Source: Anaerolineaceae bacterium (GTDB lineage Bacteria; Chloroflexota; Anaerolineae; Anaerolineales; Anaerolineaceae). From it: a stretch of 64,000 nucleotides of DNA. Below, in pieces: positions 6,800 through 48,545 of the stretch. Position 1 is the stretch's first letter, and every line of letters starts with the position of its first letter. A program made the position numbers and the translations under genes. The notes under the pieces were generated by a model, which saw only the letters and a program-made list of their open reading frames with translations, did no database searches and was not told the origin of the DNA. Location of the stretch: contig JAGPFF010000003.1 of assembly GCA_018056725.1 (NCBI GenBank), forward strand, positions 1-64,000, written 5' to 3'.

Positions 6800-7426
6800 T
6801 TAGTCCTGCAGGCTATAGGAGGGCTCGCGAAGCATCCCCAAGACCTCCGGAGCTTTCGGGGATAGACTTTTCCTTCCCGTCAGTGTGAATCCCAGCGAAG
6901 TGTAAAAAGGCACATTTTCCGAGTTAAAAGTATCAAGATAACAGGCAAGCTGCAGTTGATCTGCGCGGGCAAGCCCTTTCCTTACTAAAGCGGCACCCAA
7001 TCCCCTGCCATGCAAGGCTGGTGAGACACCGAGTTCTGCCAGATAGAAATGGGCACCGGAAATGGTTTCCCGGTGCAGCTGATCTGAGAGGCTCGCCAGT
7101 TCGGTGCTGCGACGGAATTCCAATCGGGACAATTTGAGCGGCAGCAGGAACAAACCGGTGCGCAGCACACCGTGCAGTTTAAGGCTGGTGGAATGCGGAC
7201 CGAGCCACATCGCCGCCCCTTCCAGCTGCTGTGTGGTGTCCACTTTGCCGTAAAGATGACCATAGGCAAGCAGCTTTTGATATAACCAGGGAAGGATGTG
7301 GGAGCGTTTATGCTCATTCGGAAGGATATAGGCGAAAAACGGGTCCGCGAAGAATGCCTGAGACAGGATAATCGCACCGCGAGAGATTTGTGTGCGCGCC
7401 AGGGGGATAATCTCATTTGGGTTCAT
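6800..7426 (-). CDS. GNAT-family N-acetyltransferase
   Basis: 208 aa. The C-terminal part carries the acetyl-CoA binding motif A region, VSPALHGRGLGAALVRKGL (about 133-151), then YLDTFNSENVPFYTSLGF, the usual last strand/helix block. The N-terminal half (AFFADPFFAYILPNEHKR, LEGAAMWLGP) resembles the GNAT proteins found in many Actinobacteria and Chloroflexi whose substrates are unknown. The gene ends about 30 bases from the tRNA-Leu terminator and starts with no strong ribosome-binding site. Confidence 0.85.
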   Translation of the reverse strand: MNPNEIIPLARTQISRGAIILSQAFFADPFFAYILPNEHKRSHILPWLYQKLLAYGHLYGKVDTTQQLEGAAMWLGPHSTSLKLHGVLRTGLFLLPLKLSRLEFRRSTELASLSDQLHRETISGAHFYLAELGVSPALHGRGLGAALVRKGLARADQLQLACYLDTFNSENVPFYTSLGFTLTGRKSLSPKAPEVLGMLREPSYSLQD

Positions 7427-7583
7427 GTTTTTCGCTTAATCGTGATACAGGCTGTCGGGCTGATATCGCATGCTCCCTTTTCGAAGGTGTTTCCGCCACA
7501 TGCGGCGATGTTCAGGCGTATGGCGGATGCGAGTGCAGGTGATTCACTCCACCATTCTGAGAGGAAAACTTTTTTTACTCCGC

Positions 7584-8162
7584 CTAAAGTTCTTTACGCA
7601 AGATGGGACGATTTTCACGGCGCGCGACCTCTTGGAATCCAAGACGGTAAAAGACTTCGACCTTACCGGGGAACAAACTGGTCGAACTGACGTGCTGCTC
7701 CACTTCCACCGGAAAGGCTTCCAACGTCTTTACCCCTTTGCTTCTGGCAGTTTCCACGGCTGCCTCGAGCAACTTTTCCATCAATCCCATGCGGCGATAA
7801 TCACGATGAATAAAAAAACAAGGCACCACCCAGACCGGTTGCTCATCCACCGCACCAAGATGTGCCGAAGCGGCGAGTCTTCGATAACGCTCTCTCGGTC
7901 CGAGCGCGATCCAGCCAGCGGGTTTACCATCTGCATAAGCGATCATGCCGGGTTCCCCGCCGGTTTGAACGAGCGTTCGCATTTCTTCTCGATGACCGTC
8001 TCTGCCCGCCTCTTTATACTCCTTGTTGGTCATGAGGAACCAGGCGCACCAGCAGCCGGCACAGGCGCCATTGGCACCAAATAATTGTTCAAAATCGTCC
8101 CAATTCTCCGGGGTAAGAGGTTTGAATTCCCAGGTTTGCACGAGTGTCTTCTTGTTCGCCAT
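7584..8162 (-). CDS. GNAT-family N-acetyltransferase
   Basis: 192 aa from the third in-frame ATG, chosen because an AAAGG sequence lies 7 bases upstream. Two earlier in-frame ATGs at 8177 and 8201 would add 5 or 13 residues. Motif A is VPCFFIHRDYRRMGLMEKLLEAAVETA. The N-terminus has a Cys/Trp-rich CAGCWCAWF (about 34-42), typical of a subfamily in which an aminoacyl or small-molecule substrate has not been fixed. It runs divergently from dnaN. Confidence 0.85.
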   Translation of the reverse strand: MANKKTLVQTWEFKPLTPENWDDFEQLFGANGACAGCWCAWFLMTNKEYKEAGRDGHREEMRTLVQTGGEPGMIAYADGKPAGWIALGPRERYRRLAASAHLGAVDEQPVWVVPCFFIHRDYRRMGLMEKLLEAAVETARSKGVKTLEAFPVEVEQHVSSTSLFPGKVEVFYRLGFQEVARRENRPILRKEL

Positions 8163-8264
8163 CTGTTTGCCTTTCATCCTTCCTGGTTTAACGGGTATCA
8201 CATCAATTCAATTGTACAGTACTCATCCTCCTTGTGATCACTGGTTTTTTTACCTTTCTCGTTG

Positions 8265-8270
8265 TATACT
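8265..8270 (+). promoter_or_regulatory. Possible -10 element for dnaN
   Basis: TATACT preceded by TG, 34 bases before the dnaN start. No good -35 hexamer is seen at 16-18 bases, so this is tentative. Confidence 0.4.
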
Positions 8271-8304
8271 CAAATCACAAATTTTTCTTAACGCGAGGGT
8301 GCTT

Positions 8305-9432
8305 ATGAAAGTCACTGTCACTCAGCAACATCTCGCTCACGGTCTGAGCATTGTCAGCCGGGCGGTTTCTCCGCGCAGCACCCTGCCGGTGCTTTCTAAT
8401 GTGCTGCTGGCAACGGATGAAGGGCGATTACGCCTTTCCGCCACCAATCTTGAACTGGGAATTACCTGTTGGATTCCCGCTAAAATTGAGGAGGAAGGGT
8501 CAATTACCATCCCGGCACGCACCATCGTTGATCTTGTAGGCACCTTTCCTCCGGATAATGTAGTGCTGGCGCTGGATGAACGCACCCAAACCCTGAATCT
8601 AGTCTGCAACGCTTCAGTGCATGATATCAAAGGGATTGATGCCCAGGATTTCCCTCCCATGCCGGTGTATGATCCCGAGGAGGGCGTTGAGCTCAATCTG
8701 GCTGATTTCAAAGATATGATCCAGCAAGTGGCTTTTGCGGCTTCTGCGGATGAAGCCCGCCCCGTCCTTCAGGGTGTCAAGATGGAGGTGATCGACAATC
8801 AGATCACCCTGGCTGCCACGGATGGCTTTCGGATTTCGGTACGCAAGGAAAACCTCTCCACACCAGTCCCCCAGGAGATTTCCATTATCATTCCCGCCCG
8901 CGCGATGAACGAACTTGCCCGCATTTTCAGTGATGTCGACAAATCCGTGCACATGATCGTCCCACCCAGCCGCGGTCAGGTAATTTTCCATCTCAAAGAT
9001 GCCGAGCTGGTTTCCCAGTTGATCGATGGGAATTTCCCCGATTACCGCGCAATTATTCCCAAGAGCGCAAAAACCAAAACCATCATTTCCACCCCCGCAT
9101 TTCTCAAAGCCTGCAAGCAGGCTGAAGTCATCGCGCGAGAAGGTAACAACGTCATCCGCCTCGACATTATGCCTGCGGAAGAAGGTCCGGGCAAAGTGGA
9201 GATCAACGCCCAAACTGAAGAGACCGGCAAGAGTGATATCTCGGTGGAAGCCAACATCGAGGGCAGCCCACTCCTCATTGCTTTCAACGTGCGCTTCCTG
9301 CGTGAAGTGCTGGACGTCATTCACTCCCCCAACGTGGCTCTCGAAACCAATGCCAATAATTCTCCGGGGGTCATCCGACCTGTGGGTGATGAAGATTTCG
9401 TTCATGTCATCATGCCCATGCACCTCGGCTGA
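8305..9432 (+). CDS. dnaN: DNA polymerase III subunit beta (sliding clamp)
   Basis: 375 aa, the standard clamp length, with three repeats of the clamp fold. Typical blocks are LSIVSRAVSPRSTLPVLSNVLL (N-terminal domain), AASADEARPVLQGVKMEV and ATDGFRISVRKE (middle), and LIDGNFPDYRAIIPK with a C-terminal HVIMPMHLG (the MPM/R-L end typical of clamps). The start at 8305 is set by homology. The frame runs open much further upstream without sense. dnaN is not next to dnaA here. It is a single gene followed by a GC-rich hairpin and is about 43.5 kb from the candidate origin. Confidence 0.97.
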   Translation: MKVTVTQQHLAHGLSIVSRAVSPRSTLPVLSNVLLATDEGRLRLSATNLELGITCWIPAKIEEEGSITIPARTIVDLVGTFPPDNVVLALDERTQTLNLVCNASVHDIKGIDAQDFPPMPVYDPEEGVELNLADFKDMIQQVAFAASADEARPVLQGVKMEVIDNQITLAATDGFRISVRKENLSTPVPQEISIIIPARAMNELARIFSDVDKSVHMIVPPSRGQVIFHLKDAELVSQLIDGNFPDYRAIIPKSAKTKTIISTPAFLKACKQAEVIAREGNNVIRLDIMPAEEGPGKVEINAQTEETGKSDISVEANIEGSPLLIAFNVRFLREVLDVIHSPNVALETNANNSPGVIRPVGDEDFVHVIMPMHLG

Positions 9433-43571: not shown

Positions 43572-44834
43572 ATGATTCCGATGCAGATCCCCGCGCGAGA
43601 AAATCACTGGAAAACATTGCAAATCGTTTTTCTTTTTCTAATGATTTTTCTGTTAACCCTTTTTCTAATCCCTACCCCGGGTACAGGCAATATGGACACC
43701 TGGGTGCGCTGGGCAAATGACGCAAATCAGATGGGACTGGTGGAAAACTACCACATAAACCATGATACCTATCCTCCGCTGACAACGGTAATTCTGGTCG
43801 GAGCGGCAAAACTATCCCAGACCTTTGGCATCTGGATTTACACTGCGATCAAGCTGACCATTGTATTTTTCCTCATGGCATCCTCCGCGCTTTTCTGGGG
43901 AATGACCAGAAACGCACTTTTGACCGCGGCGTTGCACCTTTCCATGCTGATCATGAGCGTTGGTTTGGGGCACCTGGATGTTTTCTTTGCGCCTTTTCTG
44001 ATTGCCTCTTTGTGGGCATTGAAAAAAGACCGTCTGGTTCTTTTTTCAATCACCTTTTGCCTCGCGTTCTTTACCAAATGGCAGCCTTTAATCATCGCAC
44101 CATTTCTTGCCCTTTATGTTTTCAACATTTCACGTTTACGAGATTGGAAGCAGATCAAATTCGCGCGCATTCTTAAGGAAGTAGTCCTTCCGGTTGTGCT
44201 GGTATTCATTTTCTTTTTTGTTATCTTCGGCTTTCAACCAATTTTGACCGCTTTTACGGTTGCCAGCGACCACCATTATCTCAGTGGCAACGCGCTGAAT
44301 ATCAACTGGATCATCACCCATTTCCTGCATGTTTTCCAACCCGATCAGTACGGACCCCTGGTTAATGGGCAGGCAACTCTCATCAAAGGTCCGCCAGAGA
44401 CGGTCAAGCTTTATCCCAAGCTGTTATTCTTCCTGGTTTACCTCATCACCCTGGTAATGTTTTTCCGGCGTCACAAGACCTTTGAGAATTTGTTGCTATT
44501 CTCCCTCCTCGGTTACTGGGCTTACTTCACATTGAACACAGGCGTGCACGAAAACCATCTCTTCATCGGCATGATCCTTGCCATTCTGCTAGCCTGGCAG
44601 AACCGCAAGCATCTCCTCACCATGCTGATGGTGATTATGATCGAAAACATCAACCTGATTGTCTTTAACGGTTTGGATGGAGTGGAAAACGAATTTTCCC
44701 GCGTGGTCAGCGGCGTGGATACGGCTCTTTTGATTGCCATATTCAATGTGTTAACTTTTGCGGCTTACTGGGTTTTCTACACCTTCCTCCAGACGCCAAA
44801 AAAAGAAGAGGCTCCTGCACTTCCTGAAAAATGA
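43572..44834 (+). CDS. Polytopic membrane protein, GT87/mannosyltransferase-like
   Basis: 420 aa, about ten membrane helices. GNMDTWVRWANDANQMGL in the first loop and NHDTYPPLTTVILVGAA match the loop-1 Asp and D-x-Y-P-P pattern of membrane hexosyltransferases of the GT87/ALG-like GT-C group. FFTKWQPLIIAPFL and NTGVHENHLFIGMILA are further family-like stretches (G-x-H-E). The first in-frame ATG follows ATAAGGAAAAA. It probably transfers a polyprenyl-phosphate sugar outside the membrane. Confidence 0.72.
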   Translation: MIPMQIPARENHWKTLQIVFLFLMIFLLTLFLIPTPGTGNMDTWVRWANDANQMGLVENYHINHDTYPPLTTVILVGAAKLSQTFGIWIYTAIKLTIVFFLMASSALFWGMTRNALLTAALHLSMLIMSVGLGHLDVFFAPFLIASLWALKKDRLVLFSITFCLAFFTKWQPLIIAPFLALYVFNISRLRDWKQIKFARILKEVVLPVVLVFIFFFVIFGFQPILTAFTVASDHHYLSGNALNINWIITHFLHVFQPDQYGPLVNGQATLIKGPPETVKLYPKLLFFLVYLITLVMFFRRHKTFENLLLFSLLGYWAYFTLNTGVHENHLFIGMILAILLAWQNRKHLLTMLMVIMIENINLIVFNGLDGVENEFSRVVSGVDTALLIAIFNVLTFAAYWVFYTFLQTPKKEEAPALPEK

Positions 44835-44844
44835 AAGAGCCCGG

Positions 44845-46491
44845 TTATTTCAAATAGCGCTGATACAGATTTTCGCGCACAAAGACTGCGCCAAAGTCAG
44901 TCTCAAGAGCGCGTATATACCCGGTAACGTTTCCATTCAAGGCGTCTGAATAGAAGGCGAGCATTTCTTTCATTCTTGCCGGATCAATCGCTCTGGAAAT
45001 TTTGGCAGCGTCGGAAAAATAGATCATATTCTCTCGCTCAATGAACAGGACGTCGGCGTCCAGATCCTGCAGGTAGGGATAGGTCGCCAGATCCCAGTTT
45101 ATCCTCACGTCGTATTCAGGACGGTCGGCGACGTACGCCCGCCAATCACGGTAGATGCGCAGCTTGCGGTCAATCTCGATCTTCTGCAGGATCTGATCTT
45201 CTGCCTGGCGGAACATCTGGATGCTGGTGGAGGTGGTTTCGCGCTTTTGAACGTTAAGGATGTCTTTCACATCGCGAGTCCCATTCAGTCCGATCTGGAT
45301 GACGAACCCAATCATCAGGAGATAAGAAGCGACCCTGCCCCATACTACCTTTTTTGAGGTTTCAGTCGCCGCGGTGCCTTTGAGGGGGATGGCAGACGGC
45401 AAATAATTGCCCAAGCTGGAAAGCAACGGCAGCGCTGCCGGGATCAGGTAGTGCTCACGCATCGTCGCCGCGAAAAGAAGGAAATACCCCAGGTAGCCAG
45501 CGACCCAGGTGAGAATCACCAGACTGAGCAATCGGGTCTCGCGACGCAGGATGCCGTGGACAAGGGCGATCAACGAAAGGAAGAAAAACAGGATCGAAGC
45601 ATAATTTTTCTCAAAGACGGAGACAATTTGGCGAAACATGCTTTCGTTCGTATTTCCAATCACCCAAAACCCGAGCGTATTTTGCTGAAGGTTGGCTTTA
45701 AAAACGGAGATGATTTCCGCCCGCTCCATTGGCAGCAACAGCAGCGGATTAGAAATAACCACCACTCCCAGCAGCAGCAACAGGTAGACACCGGCGCGAC
45801 CCAATGCCTTTTTCAAGGTCAGCCGGTGGGAGAAGAGCCCCACCCCCAGATAAACCGCATAAGTGATCACGAATAAAACACCCAGAATCTTGGCGCCGAT
45901 AGCCAGCCCGCAGCTTACCGCGGAGAGGTAGAAGTATTTTCCAAAGTGAAATTCATCTTTTACCAGGAAGAATATAGTCAGCACAGAGAAGAAGGTGAGC
46001 AGACTGTCAGGGTGCCACCACAGGTTATTCGCGAAAACAGCAGGCAGGCTAATCAAAAGAAGGAAGAGGAGGATGGAGCGTAGCCGGGATTTGAAGCGGG
46101 TTTGCAGCCAAACGAGGAGATAGATGGAAAGGAGGATGGGCAGCACGTTGATCATCTGGCGCAGCACCAGCATGATGAGCGGTGTCTGGAATGCCCAATC
46201 GCTGCCGAAGATCCATTTGACGGGCAATAACGAGAGGGCAGAGAAGAAATAGAAGGGGTAGCCGTAATAATAGTGCAGGTAGACCACAAAGTTGCGCACG
46301 GACTGGTAGAAGGTTTCGCCAGGGGTCAGCATGTGAATGACGTAGGGGTACTGCGCGTATTCGTCATGCTCGAAGACGCTGATCATATTGACGTCCTGCG
46401 CGCCGGTGAGATTTGCCGGTATGAAGATGGCAAAATAGATCAACCCGAAAGCAAGAAGCACAAGGAAGGTGGTACGCTGAGAGCGATCCAT
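44845..46491 (-). CDS. Polytopic membrane protein, GT39/PMT-like glycosyltransferase
   Basis: 548 aa with about eleven membrane helices. SVFEHDEYAQYPYVIHML in loop 1 (Asp-Glu) and WWHPDSLLTFFSVLTIFFLV resemble GT-C dolichyl-mannose-type transferases. The C-terminal ~130 residues are soluble (IEIDRKLRIYRDWRAYVADRPEYDVRINWD, VLFIERENMIYFSD). It converges with the GT87-like gene, separated by 10 bases, so both probably serve surface glycosylation. The exact reaction is unknown. Confidence 0.7.
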   Translation of the reverse strand: MDRSQRTTFLVLLAFGLIYFAIFIPANLTGAQDVNMISVFEHDEYAQYPYVIHMLTPGETFYQSVRNFVVYLHYYYGYPFYFFSALSLLPVKWIFGSDWAFQTPLIMLVLRQMINVLPILLSIYLLVWLQTRFKSRLRSILLFLLLISLPAVFANNLWWHPDSLLTFFSVLTIFFLVKDEFHFGKYFYLSAVSCGLAIGAKILGVLFVITYAVYLGVGLFSHRLTLKKALGRAGVYLLLLLGVVVISNPLLLLPMERAEIISVFKANLQQNTLGFWVIGNTNESMFRQIVSVFEKNYASILFFFLSLIALVHGILRRETRLLSLVILTWVAGYLGYFLLFAATMREHYLIPAALPLLSSLGNYLPSAIPLKGTAATETSKKVVWGRVASYLLMIGFVIQIGLNGTRDVKDILNVQKRETTSTSIQMFRQAEDQILQKIEIDRKLRIYRDWRAYVADRPEYDVRINWDLATYPYLQDLDADVLFIERENMIYFSDAAKISRAIDPARMKEMLAFYSDALNGNVTGYIRALETDFGAVFVRENLYQRYLK

Positions 46492-46616: not shown

Positions 46617-46636
46617 AAAAGCCCTTACGGGCTTTT
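46617..46636 (-). terminator. Terminator next to the displaced tRNA-Asn end
   Basis: AAAAGCCC-TTAC-GGGCTTTT; on the minus strand it is followed by TTTTTTG, the orientation needed to end a tRNA transcript coming from the right. Confidence 0.85.
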
Positions 46637-46645
46637 AAGTCTGAT

Positions 46646-46682
46646 GGCTCCTCGTCGAGGACTCGAACCTCGAACCTAGCGG
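46646..46682 (-). repeat. Displaced 3' part of tRNA-Asn (attachment-site repeat)
   Basis: 37 bases are a direct repeat of 48471-48507 with two differences. It covers the acceptor 3' strand, the T-arm and part of the anticodon-stem 3' side. The two differences are opposite each other in the T-stem (CGAGG / CCTCG here versus CGAAG / CTTCG), so pairing is kept in both copies. It marks the far end of an insertion into the tRNA gene. Confidence 0.85.
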
Positions 46683-46827
46683 ATAATTCTTCTGACCCTG
46701 TTGGTATACATTAAAACGTAGTAGTAATTTGGGAATAATTAATTCCGGGAATTTTTTACGAATTTAAAAATCACTTCAGAAAATGTAGTTAAGTCTTTGG
46801 CATCGTTTACATTAACAAGAGTTATGG

Positions 46828-48306
46828 TTATTTGAAATATGGTTTTATTCCATTGAAGTTTTCCACAGCGATAATTCCGTCAACTCCATAATATTTTGCC
46901 GCACAAGCATTTACCCAGTGATTTTCATTGGATTGCAGTTCAGTTATGCCCCCAATTTGGTCAAAGGCAGGGACAGTTATGTGCCTTTTTCCTAAGTTTT
47001 TCTCCTGAAGAATCCATGCTTCCCTTTGGTCCCAAGCCAATGCCCGTGCTCGGAGTGGCAGAATACCAGCATATAAGCTTGGTAACATCCTACCGGTATA
47101 CGCAACTATAAATAATCCCAAAATTAAAATCCCTATGCTTCGCATCATTTTAGGAAACTTCAAGATGGCTAATTTGGTAATTAATTCACTGGTGAGAAAA
47201 CCAAGGAGAAATAAAGTCCAAATCAATAAATAATGAATTGGAAACCAGGCTCTTTCCTCAGGATATACCGATCGAATCAATACAGTTGGTACTGTATTAA
47301 AAACGCTAATTAGATAGATAGAGACAACTAAGAACAGTGTATATATTCCAAGGGCTTTTTTAGAAATTTCCAAGTGATTTTCTAATATCATGTTTAGGAA
47401 TGCCCCAAAGCCAAAAATAACCAAGAATGGAAGCCATTTTCCCTTTAACGAATAATAGAGAAAATCGAAGCCGTATCGAAATGATTTTTCTAGAAATGTG
47501 AATAGGTCGGGTCTTTTTACAGACGCGGCACTCAAATGAAAAGCATTATTTGGACTTATCAATAAGAAGAATATGCCTAATAAATTTGCAACTAGAATTG
47601 TTGAAAACAGCCAGATGAGAAAACTTAAATGTGCTTTCTTACGATTTAAACCCAGTATTAAAAACATTGCCATCGACCAAAGTCCTAGTTGCCACATTGC
47701 TGCTGTTTCCGAAAATCCTACTGAGATGAAACTAATTAGAGCAATTTCGAGGAAATTAGACCATATAAATTTTCGACTCCGTCCAATCTTTATCCCTCTA
47801 GCTGCCAAAAAAGTATTTGTTATTATAGGAAAGAGATAGGGAAAACTACCCGATCTCCAATAGAAAATTTGGTACAAGTCTGGAGCCAAGTATAGAGAAA
47901 ATACCAAAACCAAAAGACTAATAGCGATCGAATATCTCTTCTCTATCTTCTTCAGAAACAGAACTTGTATTTGGTTTACCAAAAAAATCAACGCCCCAAG
48001 CCATAATAAAATTGATATTCCGGATATCCATCGGTAGAACGAGGTTCCTCCTGCTAACTCAGCAATTCCAGAAAATAGCGTAAGGGAATACCGATTTCCA
48101 TTGTATTCAGTGTCTGCTGTATAGGCTTCGTACTGGGCAGTAATAAAGCCTTTAGTTAGAACATCCTTACCATAACAATAATCATCTTGTAAATATCTTG
48201 AAAAGAAACCTTTGTAAGCAAAGCTAAATAATGAGACAAATAGAATCAAAATCAAAAAATATAAGATCCACTTTTTCAATAATTGGTTCTCAACAAGTAA
48301 TTTCAT
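46828..48306 (-). CDS. Polytopic membrane protein, DUF6056-like (surface polysaccharide type), horizontally acquired
   Basis: 492 aa with about eleven membrane helices. Loop 1 reads GFFSRYLQDDYCYGKDVLTKGF, the acidic-Tyr-Cys pattern of DUF6056-like proteins found in O-antigen and teichoic-type glycan loci, followed by YNGNRYSLTLFSGIAEL. The short C-terminal domain (GGITELQSNENHWVNACAAKYYGVDGIIAVENF) is external. Codons are very AT-rich, unlike every neighbour. It is the only gene of the tRNA-Asn insert. Changing a surface glycan, for example against phage, is a possible role (inference). Confidence 0.7.
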   Translation of the reverse strand: MKLLVENQLLKKWILYFLILILFVSLFSFAYKGFFSRYLQDDYCYGKDVLTKGFITAQYEAYTADTEYNGNRYSLTLFSGIAELAGGTSFYRWISGISILLWLGALIFLVNQIQVLFLKKIEKRYSIAISLLVLVFSLYLAPDLYQIFYWRSGSFPYLFPIITNTFLAARGIKIGRSRKFIWSNFLEIALISFISVGFSETAAMWQLGLWSMAMFLILGLNRKKAHLSFLIWLFSTILVANLLGIFFLLISPNNAFHLSAASVKRPDLFTFLEKSFRYGFDFLYYSLKGKWLPFLVIFGFGAFLNMILENHLEISKKALGIYTLFLVVSIYLISVFNTVPTVLIRSVYPEERAWFPIHYLLIWTLFLLGFLTSELITKLAILKFPKMMRSIGILILGLFIVAYTGRMLPSLYAGILPLRARALAWDQREAWILQEKNLGKRHITVPAFDQIGGITELQSNENHWVNACAAKYYGVDGIIAVENFNGIKPYFK

Positions 48307-48429
48307 AGGAATCTCTTCTACGCTTCTATTATTTAATAAAAATGGAAAAATCTATGGGAATGGCTTTTTCAAAAATTACTCACCGAATATCTTTACACGA
48401 GTTTCTTTAAATTATAGCATTGGTGTAAA

Positions 48430-48460
48430 AAAGACACTCTGAACAATTAAGAGTGTCTTT
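48430..48460 (-). terminator. Terminator downstream of tRNA-Asn
   Basis: AAAGACACTCT / AGAGTGTCTTT arms, 9-base loop; minus-strand T-run TTTTTT follows. It belongs to the inserted side. Confidence 0.85.
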
Positions 48461-48472
48461 CTAAGGCTAAGG

Positions 48473-48545
48473 CTCCTCGTCGAAGACTCGAACTTCGAAC
48501 CTAGCGGTTAACAGCCGCCCGCTCTGCCGATTGAGCTAACGAGGA
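48473..48545 (-). tRNA. tRNA-Asn(GTT)
   Basis: Acceptor TCCTCGT / ACGAGGA, D-arm GCTC / GAGC, anticodon stem GGCGG / CCGCT with loop CTGTTAA (anticodon GTT), T-arm CGAAG-TTCGAGT-CTTCG, discriminator G, no complete encoded CCA. Its 3' part is repeated at 46646-46682, so the gene was the target of an integration. Confidence 0.95.

Follow-up and report, generated by a model that had tools for sequence, protein, structure and literature searches.

An integrase-less 1.8-kb insert with exchanged tRNA 3' ends at tRNA-Asn of an Anaerolineaceae genome, a probable derivative of tRNA-directed integrative elements

Splitting of a tRNA gene by an integrating element, followed by restoration of the gene and displacement of its old fragment, is a textbook principle, and tycheposons were considered as an analogue of the locus described here. 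In the tDNA islands of Islander, a tyrosine integrase splits a tRNA gene, the island restores it, and the displaced fragment marks the far end (PMC4383910). Among the integrative elements, CIMEs have lost the genes for integration and transfer but keep attL and attR, IMEs with Rep_trans/MobT have been described, and accretion is also described for IMEs (PMC5704250). Within Chloroflexota, the ssrA islands of Dehalococcoides target the T-loop, carry a direct repeat of the 3' end of the RNA gene and in many cases are without an integration module; their recombinase DsiB was compared with Ccr recombinases (PMC3146451), from which we read DsiB as a serine recombinase. The insert of 1.8 kb described below is very probably an integrase-less derivative of tRNA-Asn-specific integrative elements of Anaerolineae.

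The window, that is the whole stretch of 64,000 nucleotides analysed, belongs to contig C44 of genome G000 (an assembly of 2.14 Mb in 90 contigs, 89% complete), whose relatives in the named-genome collection are Anaerolineaceae. Only one tRNA-Asn(GTT) gene is present in the window, intact at 48471-48545 on the minus strand (ARAGORN; Rfam tRNA, 63.8 bits), and a promoter of the consensus TTGACA-16-TATAAT was detected by promoter scan at 48584-48557 (-). The 37-base copy of the 3' end of this gene, which the initial annotation had placed about 1.8 kb downstream, was confirmed at 46646-46682 (-), 1.79 kb from the gene, 35 of its 37 bases being identical to the gene 3' end (48471-48507, -). The two mismatches, at positions 14 (A/G) and 24 (T/C), face each other in the T-stem, where the intact gene has an A-T pair and the displaced copy a G-C pair, and tRNA-Asn with either 3' end was accepted by ARAGORN, in agreement with the proposal that both copies could form a functional arm. 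No third copy of the 37-mer was found in the genome as assembled, with up to three mismatches allowed, and a chance match is thus excluded. The compensated base-pair change makes it possible to tell the old tRNA end from the new one, and the locus is an unusually readable case of the replacement of the end and terminator of an essential tRNA gene by a mobile element.

The insert between the two copies is 1788 bp long with a GC content of 0.346, and no segment of equal length in the window has less (mean 0.512, sd 0.032; the next-lowest stretch elsewhere has 0.422), which bears out the low-GC island noticed at first reading. It carries a single substantial open reading frame at 46828-48306 (-), coding for a polytopic membrane protein of 492 amino acids with the DUF6056 domain (Pfam PF19528, E 3.8e-17), and within the insert no similarity to Int, Xis, Rep or XRE was detectable and no phage or plasmid genes were found; the earlier description of one gene and no integrase thus holds. 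A TATAAT -10-like box upstream of this cargo gene (48411-48416, -) was read by eye and is weak, being absent from the full sigma-70 scan. The 3' part of the intact tRNA-Asn (48471-48507, -) forms the element-side end, the attL core, and is followed at about 48427-48460 (-) by the terminator-like hairpin AAAGACACTC..GAGTGTCTTTTTT, which is element-supplied and was read from the sequence, the terminator scan not having listed it. On the far side, the displaced 3' end (46646-46682, -) forms the attR core with the G-C version of the T-stem pair, as identified by the 35/37 identity and by the clade distribution of the pair, and directly 5' of this tRNA-like core lies the 20-nt right-end box AACAGGGTCAGAAGAATTAT (46683-46702, -), identified with a position-specific scoring matrix (PSSM). 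The terminator suspected beside the displaced copy was found by terminator scan as a hairpin at 46617-46636 (-), 9 bases beyond it, and is presumed to be the original terminator of tRNA-Asn, following the principle seen in relatives (see below); the sequence ATCAGACTTAAAAGCCCGTAAGGGCTTTTTTG beyond the displaced G-C copy on the same strand is presumed to be the old 3' flank of tRNA-Asn.

By scanning named genomes for the tRNA-Asn end, two complete elements were obtained, L112 (Chloroflexi bacterium GWB2_54_36) and L138 (JAKAKU010000085.1), the latter with a full element between tRNA-Asn and a displaced copy. Complete elements at tRNA-Asn range from 5 to 9 kb (L138, 5.0 kb; L112/L230, 5.5 kb; L235, L237 and L238, 6.4-9.0 kb) and are built on a common plan: the tyrosine integrase lies by the tRNA and is joined by a zinc-ribbon protein, in most cases by a rolling-circle Rep and in many by an XRE regulator, after which come the cargo and the displaced tRNA end. 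The order outward from the tRNA in L112 and L138 is an optional left cargo (tRNA-Ile in L112, an ORF of 189 amino acids in L138), the integrase (PF00589), the adjoining gene for the zinc-ribbon protein, Rep (G2P in L112; Rep_trans in L138, PF02486 E 6.6e-18, with a weak MobT match), XRE, cargo and the displaced end. Among the other cargo found at tRNA-Asn, L112 carries SieB and a DpnI-like protein, G013 has an AriA/AbiL-like ATPase, and L128 has GmrSD-SLFN. What has been uncovered is a family of small tRNA-directed elements of Anaerolineae that combines a tyrosine integrase and a rolling-circle replication Rep with defence-type cargo. A tRNA-Ile(GAT) gene right after the left end was observed both in the L112/L230 element (L230, 8847-8935) and in a remnant of G002 (L056, 123-210).

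Relatives of this integrase were detected in 40 of 147 family genomes and in 21 of 396 class-drawn genomes (E<=1e-20). The integrase lies less than 1 kb from a tRNA gene in 13 of the 18 loci inspected and, at every inspected locus with a detected tRNA, points towards it (Asn, Met, Val or Pro), the tRNA-Ile of L230 being located inside the element. The integrases at tRNA-Asn, hereafter the Int138 clade, form a single clade (100/99) that spans two families, and each of them is directed towards the tRNA; L236 carries an integrase of this clade without a detected tRNA. It was also observed that this integrase family, together with the adjoining zinc-ribbon protein, has switched targets among tRNA-Asn, Met, Val and Pro (L230, L232-L234, L240, L242, L244, L247), offering a ready system for studying the change of tRNA target in tyrosine integrases. 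The integrase had no match in phages, no relative of it was confirmed in viral contigs (IMG/VR), and only one match, a distant one, was found in the plasmid collection; the DUF6056 cargo had no PHROG match, and a phage origin is unsupported.

The initial annotation had proposed that the displaced copy is the original end, swapped for an incoming one, and this is supported by two pairs of filled and empty sites. Between the flank of the displaced copy in L138 and that of the intact tRNA in G001, a near relative, 74 of 87 positions agree and the hairpin is shared (score 58.5 versus a shuffle maximum of 6), and the flank of the intact tRNA in L138 matches that of the second copy in G001 at 68 of 89 positions. 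The second pair, G013 versus G012, gave 69 of 89 positions (score 48.5 versus a shuffle maximum of 5.5). These flank matches show for L138/G001 and G013/G012 that the old end retains the terminator of the host and that the incoming end brings its own. The flank of the displaced copy in the window gave weak scores against the terminators of relatives, the best being 14.5 (G004), because the relatives of the window are too distant. In G001 (L055, G001:C16, about 7400-9000), the left end of an element and an integrase stub were observed after the displaced tRNA-Asn end and not after the intact tRNA, which, with the match to the second copy in G001, indicates that an element entered an already displaced end by accretion.

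Inserts without integrase are not confined to the window genome. Those in G008, G012 and G013, at tRNA-Asn, are 1.9-3.1 kb long with GC contents of 0.34-0.38 in flanks of mostly 0.53-0.56, and carry one cargo gene or operon each; tRNA-Asn is an insertion hot spot in the genus of the window genome. One and the same XRE gene is left in fragments just before the cargo in G008 and G012, and integrase stubs of 106 codons and about 24 codons remain in G001 and G002, respectively; these are decay products. An integrase beside tRNA-Asn was not found with the PF00589 profile on those contigs of the genus, where the stubs of G001 and G002 are short, because the sole intact genus-like copy is that of L138, which is outside the set searched. 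Integrases with such tRNA ends, for which the initial annotation had suggested a search elsewhere in the genome, are present in the relatives and were not detected in the window genome, in which, as assembled, no integrase of the Int138 family was found at E<=1e-20; since the assembly is 89% complete in 90 contigs, an integrase could sit in the missing part.

The right-end box of the window copy gave a PSSM score of 7.73 with the spacing of 20 nt, as in complete elements (AATAGGACTTGAA...), a score reached by 2 of 3536 20-mers of the insert and 32 of 127960 20-mers of the window. The PSSM was built from 12 other right ends, with G000 left out, for a box that was defined after inspection and to which L237, itself in the training set, does not conform, and the match of the window copy by this comparison is considered moderate. 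The left end of the window copy has the leader TTAGCCTTAG and a hairpin frame common to G010 and in part to G007, with identities of 92.5% over 120 bp including the tRNA (G010) and 88% over 119 bp (G007), but differs from the left end of L112 and L138 (TTTGACCAAAAATGAC...).

In the rpoB tree, G000 clusters first with G005 and G008, and next with G010, G011 and G004. The search for an empty site in close relatives was answered by G005, one of the two genomes closest to G000 in rpoB, which has the same flanks as the window, azlC, azlD, dAK and a spoVS-like gene upstream and a PMT-like gene, a GT-like gene and a homologue of 42721 downstream, but only about 770 bp between tRNA-Asn and the PMT gene and no DUF6056; these 770 bp have repeats of their own, so that the site is close to empty without being fully clean. 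Between tRNA-Asn and the PMT-like gene of G005 (L053, 9921-10760 in tRNA orientation; G005:C65), two tandem GAGTCGACGAGRAGCT units and a terminator were observed, the units resembling decayed tRNA-end repeats. Adjoining the island in the window, and outside it, lie two convergent genes for membrane proteins, at 43572-44834 (+), without a Pfam match, and at 44845-46491 (-), with a sub-threshold PMT match; their order is conserved in G005.

The T-stem pair of the intact tRNA-Asn is G-C in four of the five other genomes of this rpoB clade (G005, G008, G010 and G004) and A-T in G011. Since the clade has mostly G-C in its intact genes, the displaced G-C end of G000 is likely to be the inherited one and the A-T end to have come with the insert. 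By alleles alone this is suggestive only, because the order is reversed in G008, with G-C in the intact copy and A-T in a displaced and decayed copy, and because the pair has switched no fewer than five times along the rpoB tree of the genus.

The ends of the element, its target, the replacement of the tRNA end, the empty and filled sites and the absence of the integrase from the genome as assembled are all shown by comparison of the sequences. A complete element would enter by recombination, through its tyrosine integrase, between attP, predicted to carry a copy of the 3' part of the tRNA together with its own terminator, and the chromosomal tRNA-Asn gene, whereby the incoming 3' end would rebuild the tRNA (attL) and the old 3' end of the host would be pushed with its terminator to the far side (attR). 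The window copy would have arrived through an integrase of the tRNA-Asn clade and then lost the block of Int, Xis, Rep and XRE by internal deletion, leaving the left end, the cargo and the right end, a CIME in the terms used for ICEs and IMEs. As the insert holds no detectable remnant of Int, Xis, Rep or XRE, its descent from a complete element would be traced through its ends only.

The locus resembles the Islander islands in the split and restored tRNA and in the displaced fragment at the far end, but the window copy is without its own integrase and its ends are recognised via relatives. Like CIMEs, the insert is without genes for integration or transfer, holding the DUF6056 ORF only, and it keeps both attachment sites, with both 37-bp cores and the right-end box; its mobilization is putative, and its parent family in Anaerolineae has no description in the literature covered by our limited search. 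With the ssrA islands of Dehalococcoides it shares the phylum, the T-loop target, the 3'-end direct repeat and the occurrence of integrase-less islands, but the target and enzyme are tmRNA and DsiB there, and tRNA-Asn and a tyrosine recombinase here. The complete relatives recall IMEs with Rep_trans/MobT in pairing a tyrosine integrase with Rep_trans (L138), whereas some members (L112) have a Rep of the G2P type. The window copy has the location at the tRNA-Asn 3' end, the displaced end at the far side and the right-end box 20 nt before the core in common with the elements of the Int138 clade, but no integrase next to the tRNA, and is therefore filed as a derivative, not a member, of that clade; as the insert has no integrase or relaxase gene, it is not an IME either. 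It is best read as a remnant of the cis-mobilizable type.

Small cargo units without integrase but with both tRNA ends are present in four genomes of the genus (G000, G008, G012 and G013), and the unit of the window is a compact one, in which a left end, a single undisrupted ORF and a right end with a conserved box follow one another, as would be expected of a non-autonomous satellite that keeps both ends and is still moved into tRNA-Asn, as a single-gene unit, by an integrase supplied in trans. Such a satellite is nevertheless unlikely, because the broken XRE of G008 and G012 and the integrase stubs of G001 and G002 point to decay and the window genome is without an integrase of the family. 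Also unlikely is the wider picture in which the clade of integrases dedicated to tRNA-Asn would shuttle single-gene units without an integrase, in trans, between Anaerolineaceae genomes, each insertion swapping the 3' half and terminator of the tRNA, so that T-stem alleles would travel with mobile elements and not with the chromosome. A remnant of a different element, be it a prophage or an ICE, that inserts at tRNA-Asn through an integrase of another kind might account for a left end like that of G010 and G007 and unlike that of L112 and L138, and the genome does have other integrases; this origin is improbable, since the right-end box and the 37-bp core match the Int138 family, the insert is without phage or plasmid genes, and all five Phage_integrase matches of the genome are on other contigs.

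Tandem duplications of tRNA tails do occur in the order, but a local duplication of the tRNA 3' end around a native AT-rich gene is very improbable for the window, because the known tandem copies retain the spacer and have a hairpin whereas both ends and terminators differ here, the gene is absent from G005, and the GC content of the insert is far outside the range of the window. Local duplication and chance were rejected because the genome has just one pair of copies and because of the composition of the insert. G012 and G013 have single-gene or operon units whose 3' site is structured, which brings to mind an integron-like cassette, one gene with a structured recombination site, for which the probability is close to nil: the complete members have a tRNA-directed integrase, target the tRNA 3' end and restore the tRNA, and the extra hairpin is absent at the window site. 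Preference is thus given to the integrase-less derivative of the Int138-type elements.

With respect to the cargo, an acidic motif in the first outer loop, D41 D42, is invariant in seven DUF6056 homologues and is a putative catalytic motif. An AlphaFold2 model of middling quality (pLDDT 66) was compared by VIA-align, and the first 34 rows were all enzymes of the GT-C type or complexes holding them, with a best Z of 11.8 that is below the 13 advised for helical folds; Foldseek with the same model gave no match at E<=0.001. The cargo protein is a putative GT-C glycosyltransferase. Such an enzyme would modify a surface glycan and might alter phage adsorption, which, given SieB, the DpnI-like protein, the AriA/AbiL-like ATPase and GmrSD-SLFN as cargo at tRNA-Asn, is a reasonable guess and not a result. 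For a defence role no support was obtained from PADLOC or NCBIfam, and no mention of DUF6056 was found in the literature searched.

A separate kind of repeat was observed at tRNA genes of Anaerolineales. In many members of the order, a tRNA gene is immediately followed by a tandem array in which its 3' end recurs one to five times; the units measure about 55-113 bp and share a hairpin, CCCCATTGAGGGGATGNTAT, at the junction of the T-stem and T-loop. No Rfam family was found for the hairpin unit, and no related hairpin is present in the displaced copy of the window. Units with CCCCATTGAGGGGATGNTAT were detected in 58 of 400 genomes, and 27 of the 30 unit loci inspected are located behind a tRNA, of eight kinds (Asn, Gly, Lys, Arg, Ser, Glu, Asp and Met), the tail of the unit copying the adjacent tRNA in many of them; examples are L278 (1392-1700), L280 (1377-1900), L299, L302, L292 and others. 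In G001, G003, G012, G013 and G015, the displaced tRNA-Asn ends are split by related hairpins.
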